Shown: one piece after another, positions 38,124 through 60,000 of the stretch
How positions within the stretch are numbered: the stretch's first letter is position 1
How the letters are laid out: every line of letters begins with the position of its first letter
Assembly: GCA_903875045.1 (NCBI GenBank)
Contig: CAIQUS010000194.1
Span: forward strand, 1-64,000
DNA: 64,000 nt
Direction of reading: 5' to 3'
Source of the DNA: an uncultured Bacteroidales bacterium
Lineage (GTDB): Bacteria > Bacteroidota > Bacteroidia > Bacteroidales > FEN-979
The notes under the pieces: generated by a model
The model's database searches: none
Told to the model about the DNA's origin: nothing
The model's input: only the letters and a program-made list of their open reading frames with translations
Program-made: the position numbers and the translations under genes

Positions 38124-39413
38124 TTATGAAATTTTATTGATTTCCCATTTAAGTTTAGGGTGCAGTATCCCTTTGGGAATGCTGCCAAGGGAAATTCCCA
38201 TTTGATCATATTCCAGCTCTGAAATGGTAAAGCTGATTGTTTCTGTTTGCGGAATAAGCACTTTGTCTTTGGGAACGTCGATCAGGATCCTCACCAGGTA
38301 CTTATGAGCATTGAGGAAGTTACCAGGAATTTCGCAAATGCTTTCATATTTGCCGGCCGGCCTTGGCATTCCCCTGTCCCAGGTTACAAAATCACTCGAG
38401 TAAAACAATTCATCGCCCCGTGTCGTAAACAGCTGGGCGATGATACGCATACTTCTGATCTCTGTCAGCACTTCATAATTCACTTTGATGTAAACCGGAT
38501 TTCCATTCGACAAAAGTGATTCCGTGCTGTTGTTGGCATCGACAATTTTGATACTGTTAAGGATCAGTTCATTTGCTTCAGATTTCAAACCTCCTCCGTA
38601 ATTAATCGCACGGGAAACCTGGTTTGAAGCATCTGACAGATAGTATTCAATCACCTCCTCCGTATTGCCATCCAGGTTGACTTTCCCTCCTGACAACAGG
38701 ATTGAACGTTTGCATAATCTTCTGATAGCACCCATGTCGTGACTGACAAAAAGTACTGTTCTGCCTGATTTTGATACTTCATCCATTTTACCCAGCGCCT
38801 TCCGCTGAAAGTCTGCATCACCAACAGCGAGTACCTCATCAACAATCAGAATTTCGGGTTCGAGGTGCGCGGCAACAGCAAACGCCAGCCTGACATACAT
38901 ACCGGATGAATAGCGTTTAACGGGCGTGTTGATATATTTTTTAACTCCGGAGAACTCAACGATTTCGTCGTATTTTGAACTGATCTCCTTTTTTGTCATG
39001 CCAAGAATTGCGCCGTTGAGGTAAATGTTTTCCTTTCCTGTGAGTTCGGGGTGGAAACCCGTTCCAACCTCAAGCAAACTGGCAATCCGGCCTTTGATTT
39101 TAATCTCCCCGGTTGTTGGGGAGGTAACGCGCGACATGAGTTTCAGAAGGGTTGATTTTCCAGCACCATTTTTACCAATAATTCCGAGCACTTCGCCTTC
39201 GCAGATCTCAATGTTCACATCCTGTAATGCCCATACATACCGTCCGTCAACCGTATCAAGCCGGTTAACAACGCCTACTTTCATGGTAGGATCTTCTTTC
39301 CCCATGGCTTTTGCGAAAAACCGGTTCAGGTCATGGCTTAAAGTTCCGGTTCCTATAGTTCCCAACCTGTATTGCTTGGATACGTTTTCGAGTTTCAGGA
39401 CAACATTTGGCAT
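38124..39413 (-). CDS. wzt: ABC transporter ATP-binding protein for polysaccharide export (Wzt-like)
   Basis: 429 residues. The ATPase domain has Walker A GKNGAGKST (80-88 region, Lys86), signature YSSGMYVRLAFA and Walker B ILIVDEVLAVGD, with the long insert before Walker A typical of TagH/Wzt proteins. Residues about 270-429 form a beta-rich C-terminal domain like the Wzt carbohydrate-binding domain, which in O-antigen exporters recognises the chain terminus. With the permease gene next to it, this is the export ATPase of the locus. The gene symbol is by family, not proven orthology. Confidence 0.92.
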   Translation of the reverse strand: MPNVVLKLENVSKQYRLGTIGTGTLSHDLNRFFAKAMGKEDPTMKVGVVNRLDTVDGRYVWALQDVNIEICEGEVLGIIGKNGAGKSTLLKLMSRVTSPTTGEIKIKGRIASLLEVGTGFHPELTGKENIYLNGAILGMTKKEISSKYDEIVEFSGVKKYINTPVKRYSSGMYVRLAFAVAAHLEPEILIVDEVLAVGDADFQRKALGKMDEVSKSGRTVLFVSHDMGAIRRLCKRSILLSGGKVNLDGNTEEVIEYYLSDASNQVSRAINYGGGLKSEANELILNSIKIVDANNSTESLLSNGNPVYIKVNYEVLTEIRSMRIIAQLFTTRGDELFYSSDFVTWDRGMPRPAGKYESICEIPGNFLNAHKYLVRILIDVPKDKVLIPQTETISFTISELEYDQMGISLGSIPKGILHPKLKWEINKIS

Positions 39414-39461
39414 CTTGGTATATTTTTCGGAAAATAAACTTATAAATGAATAGAGAAATTT

Positions 39462-40340
39462 TTAAACAGTGTCCATGAAGGTCTTCTCCACTTTGTTGAA
39501 CGTAACAACGCCAATGGCAAGAAGAACCAATGAGAAACAAAAGCTGTATAAAAGCTGCAGGTAGTGGATCTGGCCGACTCCGAGCAAGGCTGTTTTGAAG
39601 GTTTCCACAACAGATGTCATCGGGTTTAGCATCACATATATCTTGTATTTATCGGGAATCTGGGATAAAGGATAGATAATCGGAGTGGCATACATCCACA
39701 GGCTGACCCCGAATGCCACAAGGTGTGAAAGATCACGGTATTTGGTAGTAAGTGAGGAGATGATGATGCCAAACCCCAGGCCAAGTGCGGCCATCAGGAA
39801 AACTAAAAATGGGAGCCACAACACGAGAATAGTCGGACAAACATCAGCTCCTTTGATCATGAACCAGCCAAGGAAGAAACAAAGGAAAATAAATTGAATG
39901 ATAAAGCTGACCAGATTTGATATCACAATGGAGATGGGCAGCGCCAGCCTGGGAAAATAGACCTTGCCAAACAGGGATGCATTCTTGATAAATGTTTGTG
40001 AGGTATCATTCAGGCAGGTGGAGAAATAGGTCCAGCCAACAATACCCGTCATGTAAAAAAGCATTTTGGGGATTCCGCTGGTTGAAATTCCGGCAATGTT
40101 CCCGAATATGATCGTAAACATGATCGTTGTGAGCAGAGGCTGAATGATGAACCACAGCGGCCCCAGGATCGTTTGTTTGAATTTCGAAACGAAATCCCGC
40201 TTAACAAACAACATGATCAGATCGCGATATTGCCAAAGTTCATGAAGGTTGACATCCAGCAGGTTACGCTTCGGACGGAGTATCAATGTCCATTCGGCAG
40301 GCAGGATGTTGGGAGATGCATTGGTGTCGGGTGTATTCAT
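39462..40340 (-). CDS. wzm: ABC-2 type polysaccharide export permease (Wzm-like)
   Basis: 292 residues with six membrane helices in the second two-thirds. The N-terminal YRDLIMLFVKRDFVSKFKQTILGPLWFIIQPLL and the later LTTKYRDLSHLVAFGVSLWMYATPIIYPLS match Wzm/TagG/KpsM-type permeases exactly in position. It forms the transmembrane part of the exporter with the Wzt-like ATPase 48 bases downstream. It moves the lipid-linked glycan across the inner membrane. Confidence 0.93.
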   Translation of the reverse strand: MNTPDTNASPNILPAEWTLILRPKRNLLDVNLHELWQYRDLIMLFVKRDFVSKFKQTILGPLWFIIQPLLTTIMFTIIFGNIAGISTSGIPKMLFYMTGIVGWTYFSTCLNDTSQTFIKNASLFGKVYFPRLALPISIVISNLVSFIIQFIFLCFFLGWFMIKGADVCPTILVLWLPFLVFLMAALGLGFGIIISSLTTKYRDLSHLVAFGVSLWMYATPIIYPLSQIPDKYKIYVMLNPMTSVVETFKTALLGVGQIHYLQLLYSFCFSLVLLAIGVVTFNKVEKTFMDTV

Positions 40341-40357
40341 GGTATATTCCTCAGGTA

Positions 40358-42730
40358 TTAAAATTTCCTTATCAGTTCAATGATGGCCTTTCTGGCCCGG
40401 ACGTATAATCTTGGAATGAAATATCTTCGTAAATTGTCTTCTTCGTTAAAATGGATGTTCTGAATTTTAACTTTTTGCCGGACATCGGTAAACACAATGT
40501 AGAGCCGCTTCATTTTATTTTCAACGGCTTCACCGATCTCTTTCGCGAATTGTTTTTTTGTTGAATGGTTTTGCCTGACCACAAAGAGCGTGACATCAGA
40601 AAAACGATTCAGCAGAAAAGCATCACCGACCAAACCTATGGGAGGCGTATCCATGATGATGTATTCATATCTTGAACGAAGTTCGGTAAAAAGCTGCCTG
40701 GTTTTCTCCGATTCAATCAATTCATCAGGATTTGGTGGAATCGGTCCGGAAAGCAGAATATCAAGGTTTTTAGTGTAGGTTTTTTGAATCACCTCATCAA
40801 TCGAAGAATCGTTGATCAGATAATTGGTCACACCTTCATTCCGGGTCAGGTTGAACATTTCAGCAATTTTTGGCCGCTGCAGATCATATCCCAGCAAAAG
40901 CGTGTGTTTCCCTGCCAATGCATATACCGATGCAAGATTGACAGCTACAAATGTTTTCCCTTCTTCGATAATTGAAGAGGTGACGGTGATGACCTGTTCG
41001 CCTTTCTGCGGATCAAGGTTGAGTTTGATTTTAATGATCCGCAGGATTTCAGTAAAGTAAGAATTGACATGGAGCAACAATTTTCCGGATCGCTTGTCTG
41101 TGTTCCTGATCAGTGTTCCGACAATCGGAACATCTGTAATTCCTTCAATATCATCCTGGGACATGATCCGGTTGTTAAACAGGACCACAATGAAAAGGAA
41201 AACGGCAGGAAGGAGCAATGCCCAGATAAATGCGTTGATATAGACTGTTTTAGAGCTGGTTGAAACGATCGCTACTCCGGTATCCCCTGCGTAATCAACA
41301 ATTTCATGATCGGGTGTATTGGCAGCCCGTTGAATCTCAACCTCCGATTTCCTTCTCAGTAAAAAATCATATAGATTATTGAAAACATTGTACTTCCGTT
41401 CGATCGTAAGGTATTCCCGTTCAATTCCCGGCAATGTCGCAAATTCAGCGTCTTTGTCGGCTAAACGCTTGTCTACATCCTCAATTTTTATATTCGTGGT
41501 CTGGATAATGCTCCGCATATTTTCAAGCAGTGCGGCTTTCATATTGATCATTTGTTCCTCAAGGGTTTGAATGTACGGATTCTGTCGCGATGAATTGGCG
41601 ATCAGATCCTCCTTTTCCAGCGTTACAGTTGACAGTTTTAAAACAAGGTCGGAAAAGAGCGGCAAACTGAGTCCAACTGTAGAAGGCATCATAATGTCCT
41701 CAAAAGAATTATGAGTCTGGATATAATCAAGTAAATATTCATAATACTTCAGGTCAGCAATCATATTGGCCCTGTTTTTCGACTCAGTGTTCATATCGCT
41801 GAGCAAGGCGGCTGATTTGGCTGAAAGTTGCATAAATTTGTTGGTCTTCCTGAAATCTTCCAGCCGTTGTTCAGCAGAATCAAGGTCTTTGCCCATCTGC
41901 AGCAACTGGCTGTTGATGAATTCAATGGTACTGATAAGGATCCTGTTTTTCTTTTCCAGATTTGTGGTTAAAAACACCCTGGTCATCTCATTGAGGTAAT
42001 CCTTTTCTTTTTCCTTGTTGGGCCCGGAAGATGAGATATTGATAACCGATGCGGATTTTTCTGTAGTGATGTCTGTCTTATTCCGATATTCAGCAGTAAC
42101 CTTGTTCATGTCGTTGACAACGAAACCGTAAACCTGTGCCGAGTAATCACCAGGATTAATGCTATCTTTCAATTTTACTGAAAACGAATAGCCATCGCTC
42201 TCAATTTGCTCGTTGAAACGATAGGTTTTGGGATTTTTAAAACTTTCAATATTCTCTGACCAGAGTTGAAATTTGTCCGGCCCAACGAATTTTAAATCAA
42301 GAAATGCCGACTTTACCTGCTTATGATTTGGCTTTAGGGTAACAACAAAGGGAGCCCGTTTGTAGATCTCTTCCCAAATATACTTGCCTCTGGCAAAGTA
42401 CGAGATCGTAAAATCAAGATTTTCAATGATGCGCCTGATCTGGGCAAAAGATTTCAAAATGGCAATCTGATTATCTATTAGCTTTGAATTAAGAAAAAGA
42501 GGATCGGCCGAAATTGAAGCCCGCTGGTCCAGCACTGACTTGTTGCTTTTATCTTCAATCAAAACGGATGTGGACAGACTGTAAACAGGAACAATATATC
42601 TGTTTTGTATTGTGGCAAAAAAGTAGGCAATTACAAGGGCAATGGCAAATAAATACCAGTTTTTGAGGTATTTATTCAATACTCTTCTGAAATCAATGCC
42701 TCCGGTAATACTTGAACTGACTTTGCCCAC
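40358..42730 (-). CDS. wzc: Wzc-type polysaccharide co-polymerase with tyrosine-kinase-like ATPase
   Basis: 790 residues. Membrane helices lie near 25-42 and 505-530 and bracket a periplasmic Wzz domain with coiled coils (about 240-330 and 370-440). The cytoplasmic BY-kinase part has Walker A SIIEEGKT, Walker A' LLLGYDLQRPK (first Asp of the usual LIDADLR replaced by Gly, a form seen in other Bacteroidota) and Walker B YIIMDTPPIG. The C-terminal tail has only a few tyrosines (RRYFIPRLY), fewer than the Tyr cluster of model BY-kinases. It would control chain length and act with the Wza lipoprotein. Located three bases after wza. Confidence 0.9.
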   Translation of the reverse strand: MGKVSSSITGGIDFRRVLNKYLKNWYLFAIALVIAYFFATIQNRYIVPVYSLSTSVLIEDKSNKSVLDQRASISADPLFLNSKLIDNQIAILKSFAQIRRIIENLDFTISYFARGKYIWEEIYKRAPFVVTLKPNHKQVKSAFLDLKFVGPDKFQLWSENIESFKNPKTYRFNEQIESDGYSFSVKLKDSINPGDYSAQVYGFVVNDMNKVTAEYRNKTDITTEKSASVINISSSGPNKEKEKDYLNEMTRVFLTTNLEKKNRILISTIEFINSQLLQMGKDLDSAEQRLEDFRKTNKFMQLSAKSAALLSDMNTESKNRANMIADLKYYEYLLDYIQTHNSFEDIMMPSTVGLSLPLFSDLVLKLSTVTLEKEDLIANSSRQNPYIQTLEEQMINMKAALLENMRSIIQTTNIKIEDVDKRLADKDAEFATLPGIEREYLTIERKYNVFNNLYDFLLRRKSEVEIQRAANTPDHEIVDYAGDTGVAIVSTSSKTVYINAFIWALLLPAVFLFIVVLFNNRIMSQDDIEGITDVPIVGTLIRNTDKRSGKLLLHVNSYFTEILRIIKIKLNLDPQKGEQVITVTSSIIEEGKTFVAVNLASVYALAGKHTLLLGYDLQRPKIAEMFNLTRNEGVTNYLINDSSIDEVIQKTYTKNLDILLSGPIPPNPDELIESEKTRQLFTELRSRYEYIIMDTPPIGLVGDAFLLNRFSDVTLFVVRQNHSTKKQFAKEIGEAVENKMKRLYIVFTDVRQKVKIQNIHFNEEDNLRRYFIPRLYVRARKAIIELIRKF

Positions 42731-42733
42731 CGT

Positions 42734-43543
42734 TTATAATTTGGTTAATGTCACTATCAATACAGCGAATGTTATAATGGTTGTGATTAAAGATAACGAA
42801 AAGGTAGGTGTGATCCCATATCCTTTTGCTCTCATCGGTTCTGCATAAATGATATCGTTTGGATAAACATAGAACATATTTTTCCCGATCTGGTTCCCGC
42901 TTCTTGTGTCGACCAGGTACATTTTCCTCACGCCATTTTCAGTCCGCAGGACTTTAATCTTATTGCGTTTGGCATAATCTGTAAATCCTCCGGCTAAGGA
43001 AATGGCCTCATATATCGAAAGCTTGTTTCGTGTCATGTTATATGTTCCTTGTTTTATGAACTCCCCTAACATATAAATGGTGTTGTTGATCAATGTTATT
43101 TCTATTCTGCATCGCCCGACAATTTTTACCACATTTGCTTTAACGGTATCCCGTGCCTGTCGCAATGTCAGGCCTCCCAGGCGGATAAGTCCGACATAAG
43201 GAAAATACACTGTACCATCGTCATAAACATGATAACCGACAAGTGCCTGGTTTTCACTGTTCAGGTAGTTGATTCCGGCCATTGGTTCGATAAACTGCGT
43301 TATCGGTTTTTCTACTGCGGTTATACTGATATACAGATAATCATTTGACTGGATACGGTATACCGTATCTTCAAAATGTTTCCCGGTAAAAGTTTTGGCA
43401 TAGGTACTGTCGATGAGTTTATCATACTGCATCAAAAGCATATTCTTCTGAGGGATGCATGATGAGAGAAAAATAACCGTTACAAAAAGGCTGTAAATAA
43501 AAAACCGATTTGCAAAAGGGACTCCTGATGATCTTAAAATCAT
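42734..43543 (-). CDS. wza: Polysaccharide export outer-membrane lipoprotein (Wza/BexD-like)
   Basis: 269 residues. A signal sequence ends in lipobox LSSC with Cys29. Residues about 60-140 are the polysaccharide export domain (YRIQSNDYLYISITAVEKP, DDGTVYFPYVGLIRLGGLTLRQAR) and an SLBB domain follows (INNTIYMLGEFIKQGTYNM...ISLAGG). The C-terminal hydrophobic helix (LSLITTIITFAVLIVTLTKL) would be an inner-membrane or outer-membrane helix as in short Bacteroidota forms. It is shorter than E. coli Wza. It builds the outer-membrane channel with Wzc. Confidence 0.92.
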   Translation of the reverse strand: MILRSSGVPFANRFFIYSLFVTVIFLSSCIPQKNMLLMQYDKLIDSTYAKTFTGKHFEDTVYRIQSNDYLYISITAVEKPITQFIEPMAGINYLNSENQALVGYHVYDDGTVYFPYVGLIRLGGLTLRQARDTVKANVVKIVGRCRIEITLINNTIYMLGEFIKQGTYNMTRNKLSIYEAISLAGGFTDYAKRNKIKVLRTENGVRKMYLVDTRSGNQIGKNMFYVYPNDIIYAEPMRAKGYGITPTFSLSLITTIITFAVLIVTLTKL

Positions 43544-43653: not shown

Positions 43654-45225
43654 CTATTTCGTAAAGCGATGAACAAAACGGAATAAATCGCTGCGATTAA
43701 TCGGTTTCACCAAATATCCGTGAAAATTATTTTCCGTCAGCCGGTCAGTAAAACTTTTGGCGGTATAGGCTGTTTGAGCGAGAAATGGAACTTTCTGATA
43801 TTCAGGCCATCTTTTTTCTATTTCCGATTTTAATAATATCCCATCCCATGGTTTCGGCAATCCAATGTCCATGATAACCACATTGAAAATCACACCCTGA
43901 TTATATAAAATTTCTGTGATATTCAGCGCTTCATTCCCTGAGAAGGCGGTTGAAACTGCACAAATATTCTCGAAATACAAATTAAGCAGAGAGGCGTTGA
44001 ACTTGTCATCCTCCACGATCAGAATGTTCAGTGCCCTTTCCCTGATATATTTTTCAATCAGTGAAAGATCGTCCGGTTGATCATTTCCGGGGGCGACCGG
44101 CAGAATAACCTTTGCAATTTCCGCCATCCGTTCGCCGGATGAAAATGAAATTTTTCCGTCAATCAGGTTAAGTGAGTTTAACAATGATTTGATTTCCGGA
44201 TTTTGTAACAAAACCGGATTGTTTATATCATATAAGCTTTTCGTGTTCTCCCGTTTGATGAAATTTATAACGGCCTGTGGTATATCCTGACCGATGTTAT
44301 CAATAACAATCGCTGCTTTTTCCCGGGTTGCTTCAAATGAAATTTCAACAAGAACATTTTCGGTTCTGGTATACTGAAGGGCTTTTGTTAAAAGGAACTT
44401 TAAAAGTTCAAGCAATAGGAATTCATCCGTAAACACTGAAATTTCTTCAGCCTGCCTGATCTGGATTTGCATGCCATGTTGCCTGGCAACCGGATCAAGT
44501 AAAATCTGGGCTTTTTGAATAATCGGGGCAAGGGGGCATGAGGTACGTGTAACTTCATAGGAATCAGCTCCTCCGATACTTATTTTATTCAGGAGGGTTT
44601 TCATCAGGTTTCCACTTTTCATGATGGATTCAACATGGACAAGCAATTTTTTATCCATCAGTACATTCGGCTCCCTGGCAAGGAGGGTACTAAAACCCAG
44701 TATGTTGTTTAATATATTTCGAACCTGATGTTCAAAATCAATGGTCAGGTTGCTTTGAATATCCCCCTTATAGGCAGGAGGATCAATCGTAATCGTCTCA
44801 TGATGTGACAGATTCTTAGTTTCACTGGCTGCGGTTGCAATGTCACTTTCTTCAATCATCACACAGACGCCAAGAAATTTCCGTCCTTCAATTTCCTTAA
44901 AATCAATTAAAACCGGAATGAGATACCGTCTTGCATCAACAAGATAGATCCTGGAGGTAAATTCTGAAAATTGCCTTGCATCAAAAGGATTTTCATGATC
45001 CTTCACAGTCACAAACAGGTCTCTGACATGATATTCCCTGATTTCGTCCTCCGAATAACCGGTCATTAACTGGGCCTTTTTGTTGAGAAGGAACAGGTCT
45101 CCCTCTATATCAGCAAGGAATGCGGCTTCTCTCTTGTTTTCGATCAGCGTTTTATAATAATCTTTGTTCGCGAGTGATTTTTTATCACGGGTCTCTTTGT
45201 TCCCGAATACTGAACGAATAGCCAT
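43654..45225 (-). CDS. PAS, degenerate histidine-kinase core and receiver (pseudo-hybrid kinase)
   Basis: 523 residues. PAS about 23-125; then FEHQVRNILNNILGFSTLL aligns with SHEIRTPLNAIIGFS with His166 kept and Glu replaced by Gln; then an ATPase-like region about 225-378 in which the N-box Asn is lost (LLKFLLTKALQYT against NLI.NAIKFT), the D.G.G box reads DNIGQDI and no GTGLGL box is seen. The receiver (about 399-523) looks functional: VEDD at 404-407, Asp453 in VIMDIGLP, Lys in YLVKP. It probably cannot bind ATP normally and may act as a phospho-acceptor scaffold. It lies 27 bases after the LruC lipoprotein gene, inside the polysaccharide locus. Confidence 0.8.
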   Translation of the reverse strand: MAIRSVFGNKETRDKKSLANKDYYKTLIENKREAAFLADIEGDLFLLNKKAQLMTGYSEDEIREYHVRDLFVTVKDHENPFDARQFSEFTSRIYLVDARRYLIPVLIDFKEIEGRKFLGVCVMIEESDIATAASETKNLSHHETITIDPPAYKGDIQSNLTIDFEHQVRNILNNILGFSTLLAREPNVLMDKKLLVHVESIMKSGNLMKTLLNKISIGGADSYEVTRTSCPLAPIIQKAQILLDPVARQHGMQIQIRQAEEISVFTDEFLLLELLKFLLTKALQYTRTENVLVEISFEATREKAAIVIDNIGQDIPQAVINFIKRENTKSLYDINNPVLLQNPEIKSLLNSLNLIDGKISFSSGERMAEIAKVILPVAPGNDQPDDLSLIEKYIRERALNILIVEDDKFNASLLNLYFENICAVSTAFSGNEALNITEILYNQGVIFNVVIMDIGLPKPWDGILLKSEIEKRWPEYQKVPFLAQTAYTAKSFTDRLTENNFHGYLVKPINRSDLFRFVHRFTK

Positions 45226-48372: not shown

Positions 48373-48882
48373 TTATGAATAGAAATAAAGGAGGATTATG
48401 GCGGTGATGGCTACCACCAGGGAAATTACCAGAAACCGTTTCCTGTATTTCATGATCTTCATCTTATTGACTGTCAATTCCTGGCGTAATTTGACGGAGT
48501 AGAGAATTTGTTGTATTGTTTTTTGGAGGTTTGGCAATAGATCATCGTCTTTGATGATAAAATCCAGGGCGCCCTGCTTTAGCAACGAGGTAGCTTCACC
48601 AATGTCAGTATTGGAAGTAAGTATGACGACCGGAAGGTTTTTGCTGATCCTTCTGATGAAATGCAGTATTTTATCACCGTTCATGGCGTCCCCATGCGGA
48701 CTCTCGAGATAATAATCCAGCAAAATGACATCGGGATCAGCCTCCCACGAGGAGATCATTTGTTCGCCCGACCGAAAAACATGAACGGTATAGCCAGTAT
48801 TGCTGAGAGATATAGCCAGTGTTTCGGCAAACATTTCATTATCATCGACAATGAAAATCGTGGCATTGTCAGTTTTTTCCAT
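48373..48882 (-). CDS. Receiver-domain protein with C-terminal membrane anchor
   Basis: 169 residues. The receiver domain (about 7-128) is complete: IVDDNE at 11-16, phospho-acceptor Asp56 in VILLDYYLE, Thr89 in VILTSN and Lys111 in FIIKDDD; a short insert (SPHGDAMNGD) follows beta-3. After a basic linker (KMKIMKYRKR, 140-149) a single hydrophobic helix at 150-168 ends the protein, so it should be tail-anchored with the receiver in the cytoplasm. No output domain exists. It overlaps the priming transferase gene by 14 bases, linking its synthesis to that membrane enzyme. Confidence 0.85.
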   Translation of the reverse strand: MEKTDNATIFIVDDNEMFAETLAISLSNTGYTVHVFRSGEQMISSWEADPDVILLDYYLESPHGDAMNGDKILHFIRRISKNLPVVILTSNTDIGEATSLLKQGALDFIIKDDDLLPNLQKTIQQILYSVKLRQELTVNKMKIMKYRKRFLVISLVVAITAIILLYFYS

Positions 48883-50071: not shown

Positions 50072-50839
50072 TTATAGCTGGCGATTAATCCATTCAGGAG
50101 GCATGAATTGTTTGAACTTTGATATATTCTTGTTAAAAAGTGCGGCAACGGAAACCAATCCATTCATTTGCATGGCGCGAAAGTCTTCGACACTTTTTCT
50201 GATAACATTCCTGATGCTTTTATTGCTTTCACCTCCAAATCGCATCCGAATGAGCACCAAAGGTATATAAAATGTGCTTATCCGAAAGCGCACCAGGAAA
50301 CGAAGAATCGACTCATAATCAGCCGAAATCCTGAAACTGGTATTGAAACCGCCATAATTCTCATAAACTTCGCGTTTTACATAGAAAGTAGGGTGCGGAG
50401 GCATCCAGCCGGTCAGGGCACGGGCGCGGGTGAATTTTCCGGAACGCCAGAAACGGATAATTTTATCGGTGTCATTCTGAGCGACATAAACCAAATCGCC
50501 ATAAACCGAATCAACATTGAATTTGATAAAGGCCTCCGCAATCATTTTTATGGTTTCGGTGGAGGCAAAAATATCATCGGAATGCAAAAAACCAACTACA
50601 TCGCCAGTTGCAAGCCTTATTCCTTTATTTAACGCATCATAAAGCCCTTCGTCTTTTTCTGAAACAAATGTTGAAATGCGCCCTTCATAGGAGCGGATGA
50701 TGTCGCAGGTGCTGTCTTTCGAATTACCATCTACAATCACATACTCTATGTCGCTATACGATTGGCTCAACACCGATTCGATGGTATCGCGAAGGGTTTT
50801 TTCGCTGTTATAGGTGATGGTGATGACCGAAATTTTCAT
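50072..50839 (-). CDS. Family 2 glycosyltransferase (WcaA/WcaE-like)
   Basis: 255 residues. ISVITITYNSEKTLRDTIESVLSQ, VIVDGNSKDST and VGFLHSDDIFAST define a GT-A enzyme, and DSVYGDLVYV with FWRSG, MPPHPTFYVKREVYENYGGF, is the hallmark of a colanic-acid-type GT2 subgroup. Soluble. It lies 18 bases ahead of the priming transferase gene and 59 bases after the WcaF-like gene. Confidence 0.9.
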   Translation of the reverse strand: MKISVITITYNSEKTLRDTIESVLSQSYSDIEYVIVDGNSKDSTCDIIRSYEGRISTFVSEKDEGLYDALNKGIRLATGDVVGFLHSDDIFASTETIKMIAEAFIKFNVDSVYGDLVYVAQNDTDKIIRFWRSGKFTRARALTGWMPPHPTFYVKREVYENYGGFNTSFRISADYESILRFLVRFRISTFYIPLVLIRMRFGGESNKSIRNVIRKSVEDFRAMQMNGLVSVAALFNKNISKFKQFMPPEWINRQL

Positions 50840-50898
50840 GATTTACGTGGAGTTGATTATTGGGTGCAAGTTAGCGAAAACCATGGAGTTATTTTATT

Positions 50899-51450
50899 TT
50901 ATGATTCAAATACCCGCTCTTTGACCTTTACCGCCGGATTTCCCTGGTATATACAAAACGGATCAAGATCGCGGGTAGCAACCGAATTTACGGCGAGAAC
51001 AGAATGAGATTTACATGTTACTCCCGGACAAACAATACTAAACGCTCCGATCCATGCACCATCCTCCAGGATGATTTTCCCGGTAATCAGGTCAAATGTG
51101 CTTTTTTTAAAATTATGATTCCCACATAACAACATGGCTCCCTGAGAAATACAACAGTTATTGCCAATTACAACATTGTCAAGGTTATCTATCCAGGAAT
51201 TTTCGCCGATCCAGGTGTAATCTCCAACAATCAACCGCCATGGATATTTGATATTGACACAAGGTTTGATATTGACGCCAATACCTATTTTTGCCCCAAA
51301 CGCTCTTAGTAAAGCACACTTCAGACCGCTTGAAGGAATCATCCCGGATTTGAAGAAAAGAATGTTCACATAATACCAGCCCAGGCGCTTCAACACATTA
51401 CCCCCGGGTTTGTAATGACTGTTGTTATAGCGGGAGATTTCTGTAACCAT
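50899..51450 (-). CDS. Putative acetyltransferase, WcaF-like
   Basis: 183 residues. Start YNNSHYKPGGNVLKRLGWYYVN and KYPWRLIVGDYTWIGENSWIDNL are typical of WcaF-type colanic acid acetyltransferases; hexapeptide repeats follow (VVIGNNCCISQGAML, DGAWIGAFSIVCPGV, SVLAVNSVATRDL) and the end reads YQGNPAVKVKERV. It uses acetyl-CoA to modify a sugar. It follows a GT4 gene by two bases. Confidence 0.9.
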   Translation of the reverse strand: MVTEISRYNNSHYKPGGNVLKRLGWYYVNILFFKSGMIPSSGLKCALLRAFGAKIGIGVNIKPCVNIKYPWRLIVGDYTWIGENSWIDNLDNVVIGNNCCISQGAMLLCGNHNFKKSTFDLITGKIILEDGAWIGAFSIVCPGVTCKSHSVLAVNSVATRDLDPFCIYQGNPAVKVKERVFES

Positions 51451-51452
51451 AT

Positions 51453-52592
51453 TTAAAGATTGAAAAGGTTAATGTTTTCTGCCAGCATTTCAGGATTTTC
51501 AATATACGATTTGGCGAATGCAAAGGCATTACCGGAATAAACAACGAAGGCATCCTGGTCAAGCGAGGCAAAACTGGCTATCGCTTCTATAAACCGTTCA
51601 GGATTTTCGAGGGGAATATCCAGCCCGACCCTCAAATTTTCCAAATCTTTCCAGGGTGTACGGTTGCTGATGATCACCGGACATCCCGCCATGAAACTTT
51701 CCAAAATCGTATGACCAAAATTTTCCCCCGTTGTTGGCAAAAGCATTACATCATACCCCTGCAGTTCTTCAAGAATTTTCTCACTGGGGATGCTTCCGCG
51801 GTACGAAACGGTTATGTTCGGTGGTATCGACCTGATAAGTTCTTTACATCTGTTCCAATAGGCCTCATCATTTACCGGCCCGATAATATCGTACCGGATT
51901 GCATGGTTTTTGCACCGGCCCAGAATTTCAAGCGCATATAACTGGTTTTTTTCAGGTGAGATGCGGGCAACCGTCACCATGGTCAATTGTCCCGGGGTTT
52001 TAAATTTACGCAAGGGAGGTTCTGAAACTTTCCTTGGCAATTCACGGGCTTCGGCAATTTTAACATTTTTTCCAATGTGTGCCCTGATATCGGAGGTTTC
52101 ATGGGCAATTACAGAGTGAAATACAGTTCCGTGATAAAACCGGATCATTTTCATCAGGGCAAGAAACATGTTTTTTCTGAATGATTTCACACCGAGTGCC
52201 CCCTGTCCGAGTACGCCATGCGAAGCGATGATGATACGCTTATGGCAATGAATTTTGGCTAACAACAAGGGTAAAAAAGAGAACCAAAACCCGAAAAGCA
52301 GATGAATATAAACCACATCATAGTCTCTTTCCTTTAACAACCTGTTCATCAGTCCAATTTTGCGGTTTGCTGCTGAAACATAATAGATATTTACATTTGG
52401 GGAGACGACGATCCAACAATCGGGTATTATTCCCGGATATGGAGTGTTTTCAGTGTAATCGGTATCACTTGTGACAATATAGAACTCAAAATGATCCTTC
52501 AAAAAGTCAACCTGGTTCATAAAAGCACGGATGGTGCCACCTGCCTTGTAACCCGGCCAGTAATAATCGGTAAAGGAGAGAATTTTCTTCAT
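51453..52592 (-). CDS. Family 4 glycosyltransferase
   Basis: 379 residues. N-terminal KILSFTDYYWPGYKAGGTIRAFMNQVDFL, middle HGVLGQGALGVKSFRKNMFL and C-domain MVTVARISPEKNQLYALEIL with LLPTTGENFGHTILESFMAGCPVIIS are classical GT4 motifs, the last giving the E-x7-E donor-binding pair. Related to galactosyl/mannosyltransferases of EPS loci. It is one base away from the upstream GT4 gene and two bases from the WcaF-like gene. Donor unknown. Confidence 0.9.
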   Translation of the reverse strand: MKKILSFTDYYWPGYKAGGTIRAFMNQVDFLKDHFEFYIVTSDTDYTENTPYPGIIPDCWIVVSPNVNIYYVSAANRKIGLMNRLLKERDYDVVYIHLLFGFWFSFLPLLLAKIHCHKRIIIASHGVLGQGALGVKSFRKNMFLALMKMIRFYHGTVFHSVIAHETSDIRAHIGKNVKIAEARELPRKVSEPPLRKFKTPGQLTMVTVARISPEKNQLYALEILGRCKNHAIRYDIIGPVNDEAYWNRCKELIRSIPPNITVSYRGSIPSEKILEELQGYDVMLLPTTGENFGHTILESFMAGCPVIISNRTPWKDLENLRVGLDIPLENPERFIEAIASFASLDQDAFVVYSGNAFAFAKSYIENPEMLAENINLFNL

Positions 52593-52593
52593 G

Positions 52594-53586
52594 TCATTTT
52601 TTTACTATCTGCTCGTAGATACCGGCAAATTGCCTCCCGATCGCTTCGGGTTGGAACCGTTTCACATTTTCAAACCCTTTTTGAATCAACCCTGCACGCA
52701 GGGAGTCATCTTTTATCAGTTGAGTCACTGCTTCCCTGATGGCATCAATGCTTTCAACATCAATAACCAGGGCGGCTTCACCTGCAACCTCGGGAAGTGA
52801 AGTATTGTTGCCGGTGATCACAGGCCTGCCGATGGCGTTGGCTTCAAGGATTGGAAGCCCGAATCCTTCATACAGGGAAGCAAAGAGGACGATATCGGCG
52901 TTGCGGTAGTGATCCAGAACTTCATTGTATGGCAGGTTGTAAAAGTTTTCATATCTGATACGGTGCTTTTCAAGAAGCAGGGTTTGTTCGTCAGTTAATT
53001 TTCCAATGATGACAAGGGTCACGTCAAGTCCTTCCAGCGCCGGAATGACGCGTTGAAGGTTTTTATTCGGTGTTGTGCCAATTTGGAGGATTACAGGTCC
53101 TGATGCAGTAAACTCACGCGGACATTGTTTAATATCAGAAGAAATGCAGTCATAAACCACCAGGATTTTTTCAGCTTTGATCCCGGTTTCCCGGATCAAT
53201 TCCTGTTTGATGAATTCAGATATCACCGTGATATACCTGACCCGCATGGCCGGCATGGTAAACCAGAAAAACTTCAGTACGGCGCGCCGTAAACCTGCTC
53301 CCATGGAAAGAATGCGGAGATCGTGAATGGTCAGAATTGTTTTGCTCTTTTTCATAAAGACAGCGATGTAGTGAACATCGCCGGTAATATGGTTCACTTC
53401 CCCCTGATGAAATGCAGAATCGATGGTATTATAAACCCTTTTCCAAAGACCCTGGCTGTTTTGCTTCATTACATACCTTGAATATTGAACCCGGACCGGG
53501 AGCGCAGCGATGATGGTATCGAATAACTCTTCAATGCTGTGATGCCAGGGAGCATTGGCTTTACGGAAAAAAAATACGGTTTGCAT
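52594..53586 (-). CDS. Family 4 glycosyltransferase
   Basis: 330 residues. The C-domain contains [22 protein letters not shown] and [28 protein letters not shown], the nucleotide-sugar site with E-x7-E; the N-domain has [14 protein letters not shown], close to mannosyltransferase-type WbpY/WbdB enzymes. First glycosyltransferase gene in transcription order, 52 bases after the receiver gene. Cytoplasmic. Confidence 0.9.
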
Positions 53587-53638: not shown

Positions 53639-54079
53639 TCATTCATTGTCTGACAAAAAATTCTTGATCCTCTTAAAAGTCCTTTTCACCGGTGTATTGG
53701 CAGACCTATTCCTGATATCTGATTCTATCTTTTGTAACACCGGCAGGAGCTTCTCAAATGCCTTCTCATCCTTTTTAATATAGTCTAACGCTCCCTGTTT
53801 TATTGACTGTACAGCAAGTTTGACACTCTTTTGGCCCGACATGAATATGACTTTCAGGTCAGGTTTATACGCCCTGATTTTCTGCAACACCTCCACACCG
53901 TTAACCAACCCAAGTTGTTGATCCATGATGACAACATCGGGAACTGTTCCCTCATAAACCTGCAAGATACATTCGAGCCCATTGTCAACATGTTTCACGT
54001 TCTCATATCCGGCGCTCTTCAACAGTTCTAAAAGCATCGTGGCATAAAAGGGGTCATCCTCAACTAATAATATAAACAT
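53639..54079 (-). CDS. Stand-alone receiver-domain protein
   Basis: 146 residues. The domain is complete: VEDDP at 6-10, phospho-acceptor Asp53 in VVIMDQQLG, Ser81 in IFMSGQ and Lys in DYIKKDE; a basic tail (TPVKRTFKRIKNFLSDNE) follows without any known output. It resembles the tail-anchored receiver at 48373 (both QGALD[FY]I.KD and a helical end). At the head of the minus-strand polysaccharide locus and opposite to a hybrid kinase gene, it may relay to a protein partner. Confidence 0.88.
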   Translation of the reverse strand: MFILLVEDDPFYATMLLELLKSAGYENVKHVDNGLECILQVYEGTVPDVVIMDQQLGLVNGVEVLQKIRAYKPDLKVIFMSGQKSVKLAVQSIKQGALDYIKKDEKAFEKLLPVLQKIESDIRNRSANTPVKRTFKRIKNFLSDNE

Positions 54080-54326: not shown

Positions 54327-56198
54327 ATGGAAAAGATTGACCATAATCTGGTTTTACTTGAACTGGCATTATCCGCAGGAAGTGGCACTGAAAATTCAAA
54401 TTTCGATCTTGCCAGGTTATTAAACATGTCAATACCCAAATATATTCAGAAACTTGGGTGTTGCGGGGCTTGTGTTTTGCAAAGCACTGACCAGGGTTTA
54501 CAGGTGGTTTACAATAACAATCTGGTCGAAAAGCCATGGTTTCCCCTGACCGGTATTGCCAACGGGCTGTTTCTGGCGCCAGATCAATCCGGGAGGGCTG
54601 AATCATGCCTTATCATTAAAAATGAGTTGATTCATTATGTTTTCAACCTGGAGAAATTTGGATTGCTGATACTTTCCCGTGAAACGCAACTTGACAAGGA
54701 ATTTCATTCCCGGCTGCTCCCGGTAGTTGCCCTGCTGGCCTTTTCATGTTATACTTATGTGGAAATCAGCAGGCAGCGGAAAATGGTTGAAAAGCTGAAA
54801 CCGGAGCAAAATTTGCCTGATCTTGTCATTAGAAACACGCCTGATGAGTCGTCAAACATTGAATCGGATCGTTCCGCCATCGAACAAACAGATTTTAACA
54901 TCCATGAGTTGTTCCTGAGGGTATATGCTGCCAATGAGTATTTGGCTGAGGGAAAAAACATACTTGTGCAATTCTCCGTTGATCCGGCTATTCCTGAGGT
55001 TTTAAATGGTGATTTTGTCCGCCTTCACAAGGCACTTCATCATCTGGTAAGTAATGCCGTCAGATATACACAGGAAGGGAAGATCGAATTACACGCAAAA
55101 CTTATTGAAAGCAAACATGGGACAAACAAAATCCTGTTTGTTGTTGAAGATACCGGCATCGGGATCAGTCCTGAAAATCAAAAAACAATGTTCAATGGTT
55201 TTCAGCGGGGTGATGAAGAAATCACCTTCACCCACACAGGAGCCGGCCCTGGTTTGGCTATCAGTAAGCAACTTGTTGAGATTATGGGCGGAAACCTTTT
55301 TATGGAAAGTACGAAAAACATTGGCAGCAGTTTTTTCTTCACCCTTGAAATTCCAACCAAATCTGTTTCAGCCAATGAAACAATTACAACTGCCGACGAA
55401 CCTAAGTCTGCACCATTCAGCGGATACCGGTTTTTATTGGTTGAAGACAACAAGTTCAACCAGCTCATCACCAAGTCAGTTCTGGAAATATGGGGTGGCT
55501 CAGTGATTATCACGGAAAATGGCCAACAGGCAGTGGACATCCTTTCCACCGAAAAATTTGACTTAATTTTGATGGATATTCAGATGCCGGTAATGGATGG
55601 ATTAACTGCGTCTCATATCATCAGAAACACACTCAATTTGTCAACTCCCATCCTTGCCATTACTGCCAATGTCGTAAAAGGGATCGAAGAAAGATGTGAG
55701 AAGGCCGGAATGCAGGGTTACCTTCCAAAACCAATAGATAAAAATAAACTGCGTGAGAAAATAATTACCATGATTCAGGCAGATCAGGGGCAAAAGAAAG
55801 CGCCGCGGGCGATTATTCCCGAAATTGAGGCATCAGCACCGGTGATGGATGAAATGATTATTGCCGACACGTCCAGGTTATTAAAAATGGTCGGCAATGA
55901 TAAGTCAATGCTGAATAGAATGATTTTCAAGTTTCTGGAAGTTACCCCGTCTTATATGAAAGAGTTATCTGATGCGGATTTGCATCATAATTCTGATGCA
56001 ATCAACAGGATGTCTCACAAGATGAAATCGAGCATCGATCTGGTTTCTGTAAACACCATGCGGGATCTTATCAAACAGATCAATGATGAGGCTAAAATAT
56101 CCGGCGATGCCGAAAACCTTCATGAAATGATTAAAAAATTTTCCGGGTATTTTGAATTGCTGGTCAGGCAGCTGAATGATATTGTAAGAATGAGTTAA
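54327..56198 (+). CDS. Hybrid ATPase-receiver-HPt protein lacking a HisKA domain
   Basis: 623 residues. Residues about 10-150 resemble a GAF-like sensor module. Instead of a HisKA domain there is a short linker (about 155-190). The ATPase domain (about 190-345) has N-box HHLVSNAVRYT (Asn243), DTGIGIS and a changed G2 box GAGPGLAIS for GTGLGLAI. The receiver (about 366-485) has Asp417 in LILMDIQMPVMDG and Lys468 in YLPKPI. A C-terminal HPt domain (about 515-620) has His564 in RMSHKMKSSIDLV. Without the helix pair carrying the phospho-His it cannot act as an orthodox kinase alone. Divergent from the receiver gene at 53639. Confidence 0.82.
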   Translation: MEKIDHNLVLLELALSAGSGTENSNFDLARLLNMSIPKYIQKLGCCGACVLQSTDQGLQVVYNNNLVEKPWFPLTGIANGLFLAPDQSGRAESCLIIKNELIHYVFNLEKFGLLILSRETQLDKEFHSRLLPVVALLAFSCYTYVEISRQRKMVEKLKPEQNLPDLVIRNTPDESSNIESDRSAIEQTDFNIHELFLRVYAANEYLAEGKNILVQFSVDPAIPEVLNGDFVRLHKALHHLVSNAVRYTQEGKIELHAKLIESKHGTNKILFVVEDTGIGISPENQKTMFNGFQRGDEEITFTHTGAGPGLAISKQLVEIMGGNLFMESTKNIGSSFFFTLEIPTKSVSANETITTADEPKSAPFSGYRFLLVEDNKFNQLITKSVLEIWGGSVIITENGQQAVDILSTEKFDLILMDIQMPVMDGLTASHIIRNTLNLSTPILAITANVVKGIEERCEKAGMQGYLPKPIDKNKLREKIITMIQADQGQKKAPRAIIPEIEASAPVMDEMIIADTSRLLKMVGNDKSMLNRMIFKFLEVTPSYMKELSDADLHHNSDAINRMSHKMKSSIDLVSVNTMRDLIKQINDEAKISGDAENLHEMIKKFSGYFELLVRQLNDIVRMS

Positions 56199-56220: not shown

Positions 56221-57003
56221 ATGAGTGAGCTTTATTTTATCTTTTACAAGACATTTTTGCAATTTTTGATGCCGCTAGGAGTCGGTTTTATCGGATTGGC
56301 GGCTGCACTGTTTTTACTTTTCAAAAGAGCTGAAAACAAAACCGGTTTCAGACTGTTTTTGTGTTCCTTTTTATGGCTTTGGCTTTGGAGCATGCCGGTA
56401 TGGAGTGATTTCATTCGTGGCAAACTGGAGACACAGTTTCATTACCTGCCTGCCACCATGTATCCCGAGGCAGATGCAATTGTGGTATTGGGCGGCGGTG
56501 TGAGGGGATTTGCAGGAACAGATTACCCAAATTTCGACCTTAACGGAGCCGCCGACCGTGAATTGTTTGCATCTCAACTATATCATGCAGGGAAGGCCAG
56601 CCTGGTCTTTGCAAGCGGAGGATCTGATCCGGTCATCAAAACCGGCACAGCTGCGCTGGCCATGAAGGACTTTCTGGTACTCCTCGGCGTTCCTGATTCT
56701 GCCATCCGGATTGGTGCCAACAGCAGGAACACAATAGAAAATGTAAAGGAGGTCGCAAATATGATGAAGAAGATTAAAGGGAAATCAATCTTACTCGTAA
56801 CTTCGGCGATTCACATGCCGCGTGCGATCAGATTGTTTGCTCATACCGGGCTGCATGTAGTCCCCGCTCCGACCGATTTCGAAACTATTTCCGTTCCATT
56901 CCGGCTGATCAGGTTACTACCGGATGCAGAAGCTTTGGAAAACAGCTCACGTGCAGCGAAAGAGGTTCTCGGATTATGGATCAATAAGCTAAATGGGCAT
57001 TAA
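56221..57003 (+). CDS. ElyC/SanA/YdcF (DUF218) family envelope protein
   Basis: 260 residues. Two membrane helices near 10-33 and 42-60 precede the DUF218 domain with ADAIVVLGGG, LVFASGGSDP, the NSRNTIENVKE motif and LVTSAIHMPRAIRLF. ElyC-type proteins affect envelope integrity and undecaprenyl-phosphate use during peptidoglycan and polysaccharide synthesis in E. coli. Location beside a polysaccharide locus fits a role in lipid-carrier economy, but this is inference. Its last codons overlap the convergent hybrid kinase gene by four bases. Confidence 0.85.
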   Translation: MSELYFIFYKTFLQFLMPLGVGFIGLAAALFLLFKRAENKTGFRLFLCSFLWLWLWSMPVWSDFIRGKLETQFHYLPATMYPEADAIVVLGGGVRGFAGTDYPNFDLNGAADRELFASQLYHAGKASLVFASGGSDPVIKTGTAALAMKDFLVLLGVPDSAIRIGANSRNTIENVKEVANMMKKIKGKSILLVTSAIHMPRAIRLFAHTGLHVVPAPTDFETISVPFRLIRLLPDAEALENSSRAAKEVLGLWINKLNGH

Positions 57004-60000
57004 ACCTTCGAAGGGTGATCGGCGACCCATTTTTCAAGTTGTGTGATCAGAATTGGGAATGTTGCTTTTAATTTTGTAAACAAACCCGGAAGCTGGTCGA
57101 GATTTTGTTTCTGACAGCTAAAGTTGCAGATGAGTTTAATTGGATCACTTATGGTTGGTGCTGCAATGAGATCGAGACTTGATTTAATTTTTTGAGAAAT
57201 CTTCTTCATCTCGTCTAAATTTTCGGTCTGATAAGCATTTATCAAAGCCTTGTGATTTTCCGGGATGTATTGCAGGAAATTGACAATCACATTACGTACC
57301 TGTTCCTGGTTGTAATTTAAAAACCGGGTAAGCCTGGCCAGTTCAAAGTGAACCTCTTCCTGAACTGCTTCTGCCGCGGAAATTTTCAGCGGGCTGATTT
57401 CTTTGACAAAGGCAGTTGGTTGAATGCCAAGAGCCTTCAATAATTTTTTATACAGATCTTCTTCATCAAATGGCTTGGTAATATAGTCGTTCATCCCGGC
57501 ACCATATGCTCTCTGAATGGCCTCTTTGGTTACATTGGCTGTGAGAGCGATGATTGGTGTGATCCTGGTGATTTCGTTACGGATAATCCTGGTAGCCGTA
57601 ATGCCATCCATGACAGGCATTTGCATATCCATTAAAATAATATCGTAAGTGGTTTGCCTGAGAAGATGAACAGCAATGCTCCCGTTTTCGGCAATTTCGG
57701 TTGATGCACCCCATTTTTCGATGATTGATTGAACAATGAACTGATTGAATTCATTATCTTCAACAATCAAAATCTTCTTATTCTCCAAAGCATGCAGGTC
57801 AACCGTTACCTTATCATCTGCTCTTTGAAACACTTTTTCATCACTGACTCCAAATTCCAGGGTAAAGTAGAAGCGGCTGCCTTTCCCTTTTTCACTTTCA
57901 ACCTGCAACTCCCCACCCATCAGGGCTACGAGTTGCTTGCTGATGGCAAGGCCCAACCCGGTTCCGCCGTATTTACGGGTTACGCTGTCATCTTCCTGGC
58001 TGAACTGTTCGAAAACATTGCTAAGGTTTTCTTTGGAAATACCGATGCCTGTGTCTGTCACAACAAACAGCAATCTTGCTTTTTCTTCATGGATCTCCAC
58101 AAGCTGGCATGACACCTCGACCTCCCCGGTTTGGGTGAATTTGATCGCATTGCTGACCAGGTTGGCAAGGACCTGCTGAATCCTTACCGGGTCCCCGATC
58201 AAGGCATTTCCAATATCCTGGTTTACCCGTGTTGTGAAGGTAATCATTTTTTCTTCAGCCGCATGCTCCTGGAGACTGTACGTCCGTTTTATAACTTCAT
58301 GAATATTGAACGGAATGGATTCCAATTCGATTTTTCCAGCTTCAATTTTCGAGAAATCAAGGATTTCATTGATGATTCCCAATAAATTTTCACCTGAAAT
58401 GATCAGCTTATCGTTGAGTTTTTTCTGTTCATGATTGAGGTTGGTTTGACGCATGAGTCTGGACAAGCCAATAACTGCATTCATCGGAGTGCGGATTTCA
58501 TGGCTCATATTTGCCAGGAACAGGTTTTTGGCTTTGGTTGAATCCTCTGCAACTTTTCTGGCTTCGATAAGTTCTTCCAGGTTTTTCTTCCGTTTGGTGA
58601 TATCAGAGACAGCAATGGTCAAAAAATGTTCATCATCTACCTGTGTCCGCTGTATTTTTAGTTCTATCGGAAAGGTTATCCCGTCATTTCTTTTGCCGGC
58701 CAGTTCTAATGGTTTTCCGAGAACAGAAGCCTCAGTGGTATCATTGATCAGGTTCACTGCACTGTCAAAGCTGTTCAGCTGTTCTTCGGGCATGAGCAGA
58801 TGGATGTTCCGTCCAATCAATGAATCCCTGGAGTATCCCCAAATGATGGTTACCTCATCATTGATCATTACAATTTTATTCTGCAGATCGATGGTAATAA
58901 TTCCTTCACCTACCGTGTTCAGGACGGATCTGAAAAGGTTCTCGGATTTTTCCAGTGCATATTCCGCCTTTTTCAGTTCTGTGATCTCCAAACCATACCC
59001 GATCAGCTGGATTACCTCACCTGCATCATTAAATATCGGGCTGACAGATCTGTGATAATACTTTTTTTCATTATTATTCTGGGGGAGAGCTTCTTCGAAG
59101 CTGATTTGTCTCTTTTCGTTTAGTGCTTTTGTGAGTAATTTTTGTCTTTGTTCGCCAACCGATTTCGCGATCCCATAGCGTTCACAGAACTGGAGATCAT
59201 TCTTGCCGATGACCCAGTTTCTGGCTTCCGCATCCGAGAGCCCGTCAGGATTCACATAAATGTAATTCAGCTGGTTATCAAATACTGCAAGGTGTCCCGG
59301 AAGATCCCCGAGTATCTGTTCATAGAATTTCTGTAATCTCACAATTTTGTCCTCAGCAAGTTTCCTTTCAGTTATGTCGCGTGCAACCGCCTGAAGTTCC
59401 CTGACCTGACCATTTTCGATGATCAGCCTGACGTTTTGGCCAAGCCAGATCTCTTTTCCGGTAGCGGTGAGGAATGGGAATTCAAAGTAGCTGTTTTCTT
59501 TTCTTTCTGCGATCTGATTGCGGTACACATCTTGCACCTTCTGATGGAAATCGCTCCGGATAAAATCAAGGTAATGCCTGCCAATCAACTGAGCATTGGC
59601 CGACTCACTGATTCGTTCACCAACCTGGTTGATGAAAGTGAAATAACCTTCAGGTGAAATAGCGTAAATCAGGTCATTGGCATCATCGACAATCTGCCGG
59701 TATTTCAGTTCGCTTTCGCGGAGTTTTTGTTCTGATTTTTTCCTGGATGTAATATCCCTGTATTGCCAGAGATTCCCGAGAAATTTTTCATTCAGAAAAA
59801 TCGGGATGTAATCCCGTTCAAAAACACGATCATCGGCAAGTTCAAGTTCTTCCCCGATCATGGTTTTTTTTTCAGCCAGGATTATTTCGATCCTTTGTAA
59901 AAAATGCTCCGGATCTTTAAAAAGATCTTTTGACTGTTGAGCCGAATTGGAACAATCGGAGCCTATCAAATACTCAGGCTCAACCGGGATCCCGAACATA

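Follow-up and report, generated by a model that had tools for sequence, protein, structure and literature searches.

The window, by which we mean the whole stretch of 64,000 nucleotides analyzed here, carries an exopolysaccharide cluster with genes for Wza-, Wzc-, Wzm- and Wzt-like export proteins (38124..43543, minus strand). At higher coordinates and on the same strand lie the gene for a protein with PAS, HisKA-like, degenerate ATPase and REC regions (43654..45225), a putative pseudo-hybrid kinase with an invariant His166, and that for a Branch-type glycosyltransferase (PF02485; 47434..48324), which is missing between the receiver and pseudokinase genes in four related loci (L039, L041, L042 and L043). 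They are followed by two overlapping genes, also on the minus strand, which code for a tail-anchored receiver, here called REC-TM (48373..48882), and for a WecA-like polytopic polyprenyl-phosphate sugar-1-phosphate transferase (PF00953; 48869..50053). The same run as the WecA-like gene includes genes for two group-1 glycosyltransferases, a hexapeptide transferase and a family-2 glycosyltransferase (50072..53586, minus strand), and is headed by the gene for a free-standing receiver without a membrane helix (53639..54079, minus strand). This soluble receiver occurs in the window and in four of the six loci read from the same family. Beyond it are a divergent gene for a hybrid kinase-like protein with HATPase, REC and sub-threshold Hpt matches (54327..56198, plus strand) and the gene for a hybrid histidine kinase with GAF, PAS, HisKA, HATPase and REC domains (57000..60992, minus strand), a candidate phosphodonor.

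REC-TM is a protein of 169 residues, and its ATG start codon is placed within the WecA-like gene. Residues 9-112 match Response_reg (PF00072; E 6.4e-18), and the acidic pair, the phospho-acceptor Asp (Asp56 by alignment), the Ser/Thr and the Lys that characterize this fold are all in place. A Pfam scan of REC-TM gave no output domain; the sole other match, nSTAND3, was disregarded because it scores under its cut-off and lies within the receiver, and REC-TM was therefore counted as lacking an output domain. The single hydrophobic segment (residues 150-168 of 169; Kyte-Doolittle 2.68) is preceded by a basic stretch, so that the protein has the hallmarks of tail-anchored proteins, namely one predicted membrane-spanning helix at the C terminus with hardly any residues beyond it. 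An AlphaFold2 model (mean pLDDT 85.5) has the receiver fold, and Foldseek returned receivers with it, including Spo0F, NtrX, DctD and NtrC1. The final helix of the model is continuous from residue 115 to residue 168, suggesting that α5, the linker and the membrane anchor form one rod. The nearest solved structures by sequence include NtrC1 and 2qr3, and a long β3-α3 loop is common to REC-TM and many free receivers; the NtrC-type and stand-alone receivers of the Bacteroidota, however, have AAA or DNA-binding domains or no tail, unlike REC-TM. Thus, REC-TM is a receiver with an intact phosphorylation site and is predicted to be tethered to the membrane, and the complete receiver, basic linker and single C-terminal helix without an output domain, as first read from the window, were all recovered by the Pfam scan, the hydrophobicity profile and the model.

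The WecA-like protein (394 residues) matches PF00953 with an E value of 1.2e-41 and has 10 hydrophobic segments. The catalytic DD, NAFNLIDGIDG and HxHH motifs are invariant or nearly so in the 11 WecA-like proteins compared. The protein falls short of the equivalog cut-off of TIGR02380 (ECA_wecA; 166.8 against 326.05 bits), and it is therefore described here only as WecA-like, with no sugar substrate assigned. Its reading frame overlaps that of REC-TM by 14 nucleotides (48869..48882, minus strand); the coordinates agree with the overlap at the 3' end of the WecA-like gene given in the preliminary description. Presumably, the two genes are translationally coupled through this overlap.

In a set of 61 genomes, made up of that of the window and those of its relatives, seven encode a full-length REC-TM, the window's own counted, and the other six copies are 57-74% identical to it; among 43 family genomes, seven have an orthologue at an E value of 1e-35. 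In all seven family members with REC-TM, a WecA gene lies directly upstream and a PAS-kinase-like-REC gene downstream, with two extra genes intervening in some. In total, a tail-anchored receiver directly behind WecA was found at 16 loci. The pairs outside the family are at L077, L078, L080 and L082 (genomes G137, G382, G398 and G132), L090, L095, L096 (a Saprospiraceae genome), L097 (a Lewinella genome) and L322 (genome G1029). The paired loci span at least five families (f1, f102, f6, f97 and f224), labels that are attached to nine or more of the genomes; L096 and L097 have no family label and could fall within these. Searching 393 genomes of the order gave, besides the window, four receiver matches above 115 bits. 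G137, G382 and G398 are pairs. G365 has a tail-less relative of 156 residues, and the 16 kb read around it (L079) gave no match to WecA. G132 is a further pair, with a lower score. In L077, L080 and L082 the WecA and receiver genes remain together despite rearrangement of the rest of the cluster. We conclude that WecA and REC-TM form a real and conserved two-gene unit. The expectation that genomes would contain receivers with a C-terminal membrane helix beside WecA genes, and that relatives would retain the linkage, was thus borne out. The pair does not accompany every WecA, an idea that we rejected given its rarity (seven of 43 family genomes and few of the 393 order genomes), and no fusion of WecA to a receiver was found among 157 WecA reading frames in 356 loci. 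A gene for a DUF1972/group-1 glycosyltransferase adjoins WecA in four distant pairs (L082:6439-7665, L096:4458-5555, L097:186-1283 and L356:5751-6965).

The residues D14, D56, K111 and S/T89, together with the hydrophobic tail, are present in all 15 complete WecA-linked receivers, down to about 28% identity, and position 13 is D or E in each of them. Conservation of the tail, on which the initial proposal depended, is thus the rule among the WecA-linked copies.

As a background, we used 116 unpaired WecA loci, 89 from the class and 27 from the order, with neither an overlap nor a length filter applied to receivers; 90 of 102 and 30 of 50 of the matches listed were examined. At none of these 116 loci does WecA adjoin a free or tail-anchored receiver, and three have a DNA-binding response regulator there. 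The latter are NtrC-like genes 91 and 190 nucleotides downstream of WecA (L231 and L275) and an OmpR-like gene 30 nucleotides upstream (L312). Conversely, among 84 distinct short receivers (115-215 residues) from 196 loci, 14 of the 20 with a tail are adjacent to WecA as against none of the 64 without, a count from which the G002 pair had been removed by the overlap filter. An enlarged set compiled without this filter contains 16 WecA-linked receivers, all tailed, 30 other tailed receivers, and 79 tail-less receivers that are not linked to WecA. Since the receivers are related, no p-value is given; the Bacteroidales pairs may derive from one ancestral pair, and the rows are not independent. 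These background counts (0/116, and 14/20 against 0/64) led us to reject chance adjacency of WecA and the receiver. We also rejected the long β3-α3 loop as a signature of WecA-linked receivers, as 59 of the 84 short receivers match it and only 14 are WecA-linked.

Tail-anchored receivers in general are common in the Bacteroidia and are not confined to the neighborhood of WecA. A search of 395 genomes of the class gave 29 new loci that were read, 24 of which have a tail-anchored receiver; one of these is the WecA pair of L322. Hence at least 23 of the 395 genomes have a tail-anchored receiver that is not beside WecA (L323-L339, L341, L343, L345, L346, L348 and L349), and 13 of these 23 loci have a gene resembling the hybrid kinases of the window within about 1.5 kb. 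Of all the tail-anchored receivers sampled, 30 of 46 are not adjacent to WecA. Two more from outside the class (L320 and L321), also without a WecA link, lie beside kinase-like genes.

The WecA proteins of the pairs share a second feature. In all 15 complete pairs, 26-35 residues follow the last transmembrane segment of WecA, against a median of 11 in the controls, although tails of 30 residues or more also occur in 8 of 88 and 7 of 26 controls. In the protein of the window the extension (about residues 361-392) is a predicted cytoplasmic helix with the motif DNRLL. A motif of the form N[RQY][FLY][LMFI] near the end of the extension, derived from the paired proteins themselves, is found in 14 of 15 paired WecA proteins, and in 1 of 88 and 2 of 26 controls. 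The exception, L322, a pair found after the motif had been defined, has NQFV and lies outside the strict pattern; a pattern widened afterwards covers all 15. In the model of the WecA-like protein (mean pLDDT 81.8, with lower values toward the C terminus) the last membrane helix extends onward and is continuous from residue 336 to residue 392. Together with the helix of REC-TM from residue 115 to residue 168, this means that, by prediction, each of the two proteins extends a helix of about 30-35 residues from the same membrane into the cytoplasm, and we infer that the two helices pack against each other. The distances among the WecA proteins and among the REC-TM proteins correlate with r = 0.973, a value reached in none of 2000 permutations, which in part reflects shared descent. 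The gene context across several lineages and the co-occurring extension of WecA strongly support a functional link between REC-TM and the priming transferase. A quick tree of WecA, which predates L322 and the order controls, places the pairs in two groups (12 Bacteroidales rows, and Saprospiraceae with Lewinella) and therefore does not support one clade for all paired WecA proteins; its branches are long and its support values moderate. In a tree of receivers, which used 35 of the 79 tail-less rows and has poorly supported deep forks, the WecA label requires three changes. The pair may therefore have had one or several origins.

The locus also offers possible sources of phosphate for Asp56. 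The protein encoded at 57000-60992 has intact HisKA and HATPase matches, and no HisKA match was found in the reading frame of the window at 54327-56198. The syntenic proteins of L041 and L042 are longer (1084 and 1225 residues) and carry HisKA, and the version in L039 is also short, with 590 residues. The WecA-receiver pairs of L077 and L095 each have a divergent neighbor that codes for a hybrid kinase, in which HisKA, HATPase and REC matches are accompanied by a sub-threshold one to Hpt. No membrane segment was found in the kinases of L038, L041, L042, L077 and L095, or in the protein encoded at 43654-45225, and only weak hydrophobic segments (1.64 and 1.73) in the window proteins encoded from 54327 and 57000, so that the presence of an anchor on the receiver is not easily accounted for by a kinase in the membrane. 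The PAS-HisKA-like-REC protein retains the phospho-acceptor His in all nine sequences (the window, L038-L043, L080 and L090), and the three scanned (the window, L080 and L090) gave no HATPase match above cut-off. At the position expected for the N-box Asn there is Lys instead, or Gln in L090, and the acidic residue that follows the His is present in L080 but not in L090 or the family of the window. This protein is a putative conserved pseudo-hybrid kinase and may serve as a Spo0B-like phosphotransfer step. A relay from a hybrid kinase to Asp56 would presumably be the simplest route for phosphate.

The reading that we regard as on balance probable, if only just, is that the phosphorylated receiver contacts the C-terminal helix of WecA and thereby gates exopolysaccharide priming. 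REC-TM would then be a phosphorylation-controlled accessory subunit of the exopolysaccharide-priming WecA-like enzyme. Its tail would retain it in the inner membrane, and its 35-residue juxtamembrane helix may lie alongside, in antiparallel orientation, the cytoplasmic helix that WecA has after its last membrane segment, which would position the receiver domain at the conserved tip of that helix. Phosphoryl groups from the hybrid kinases beside the locus would reach Asp56, probably by way of additional REC and Hpt steps, and the resulting change in the receiver could travel along α5, predicted to be one helix with the anchor, to alter the activity or the oligomeric state of WecA. The state of WecA would in turn set the share of undecaprenyl phosphate that enters this polymer. 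That REC-TM activates rather than inhibits WecA is a guess by analogy with EpsW (see below). The preliminary description had proposed direct, phosphorylation-dependent control of the transferase; the functional link itself stands on gene context and on the WecA extension, and physical contact and control by phosphorylation are inferred.

It is conceivable, but rather unlikely, that the receiver acts on other membrane parts, such as the Wzc-like kinase, the export complex or the ABC transporter, or that it scaffolds their assembly, WecA being a mere operon neighbor. The PAS-pseudokinase-REC gene lies ahead of Wza in seven family members, and G132 has a second tail-anchored receiver encoded directly ahead of Wza/Wzc-like genes (L081:3003-3476); this second receiver, however, differs from the WecA-linked protein, and in L077, L095, L096 and L356 WecA and the receiver are still together although the stretches contain no Wza/Wzc match near the pair. 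We think it improbable that REC-TM has no direct effector and serves the kinases of the locus only as a phosphate sink, or as a step in a relay, that is held at the membrane. Its lack of an output domain, the hybrid-kinase-like genes at 13 of the 23 class loci with other tail-anchored receivers, and the free receiver and the pseudokinase with an invariant His at the same locus are in keeping with such a role. Yet a sink requires neither an anchor nor linkage to WecA, tail-less short receivers are never beside WecA in our sample, and no kinase-like match was found in the 11.8 kb around the L356 pair. Finally, the occurrence of DNA-binding regulators beside unpaired WecA genes keeps mere co-location alive, and other glycosyltransferase genes lie near the pairs except in L078 and L090, which are short contigs, but retention of the gene in sugar-polymer loci only through shared expression seems very improbable, as the WecA-then-REC-TM order and orientation are constant while the neighbors change and the paired WecA proteins have a common C-terminal extension.

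Priming transferases spend undecaprenyl phosphate, which is also needed for peptidoglycan synthesis, and how they are gated is therefore an open question. The preliminary description, which favored control of WecA by REC-TM, knew of no system of this kind, a statement that no longer holds. In Myxococcus xanthus, EpsW, a soluble response regulator with a single domain, is reported to stimulate EpsZ, which primes the polymer, as indicated by proximity labeling, stimulated activity in Salmonella and a modeled 2:2 complex, and the article suggests a wider occurrence of such control in myxobacteria and beyond (PMC12802240, mBio, November 2025). EpsW and REC-TM are alike in that both are output-less receivers from exopolysaccharide loci, and EpsW acts on a polymer-priming enzyme, so that the principle is shared (PMC12802240). 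The construction differs: EpsW is soluble whereas REC-TM is predicted to be tail-anchored, and EpsZ is a large monotopic enzyme proposed to be dimerized by EpsW (PMC12802240), whereas the partner here is a polytopic PF00953 protein whose C-terminal helix is the candidate site of contact. In a word search of the same article, WecA turned up among the references alone, and words starting with Bacteroid were absent. Its discussion mentions small monotopic transferases with fused receiver domains (PMC12802240). These too couple a receiver to a priming transferase, as is proposed here, but they are fused and monotopic. As the window pair has neither a soluble regulator nor a monotopic enzyme, we did not file it as a member of the EpsW-EpsZ type. 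The PF00953 enzyme also belongs to another superfamily than EpsZ.

In the open-licence literature, we found no description of membrane-bound, -anchored, -tethered, -associated or transmembrane response regulators, and no paper that combines WecA with response regulators, receiver domains and Bacteroidetes. A single output domain anchored in the membrane, from an archaeon, is mentioned in the consulted portions of PMC5847659, and those of PMC1183210 and PMC10924467 contain nothing on membrane-anchored receivers.

The finding also suggests that receivers tethered to the membrane make up a larger group. We propose, tentatively and with somewhat less than even confidence, that tail-anchored receivers are a widespread class in the Bacteroidota whose output is neither DNA nor a second messenger but a membrane protein next to them. 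In its WecA branch, the pair would constitute a two-subunit priming transferase, gated by phosphorylation via paired juxtamembrane helices, and the first case of receiver control of a polytopic sugar-phosphate transferase. The pairing suggests that in some Bacteroidota a signal switches the synthesis of a surface sugar polymer at its first step. If true, this would be a second and differently built solution to gating beside that of Myxococcus, and WecA-type enzymes would be direct outputs of two-component systems. Two of the loci read, L289 and L290, have short WecA-like genes (341 and 336 residues) followed by a gene for a small protein (L289:2505-2942 and L290:2506-2946) whose only Pfam match is PF03951 (glutamine synthetase β-grasp), and which is perhaps another accessory subunit.
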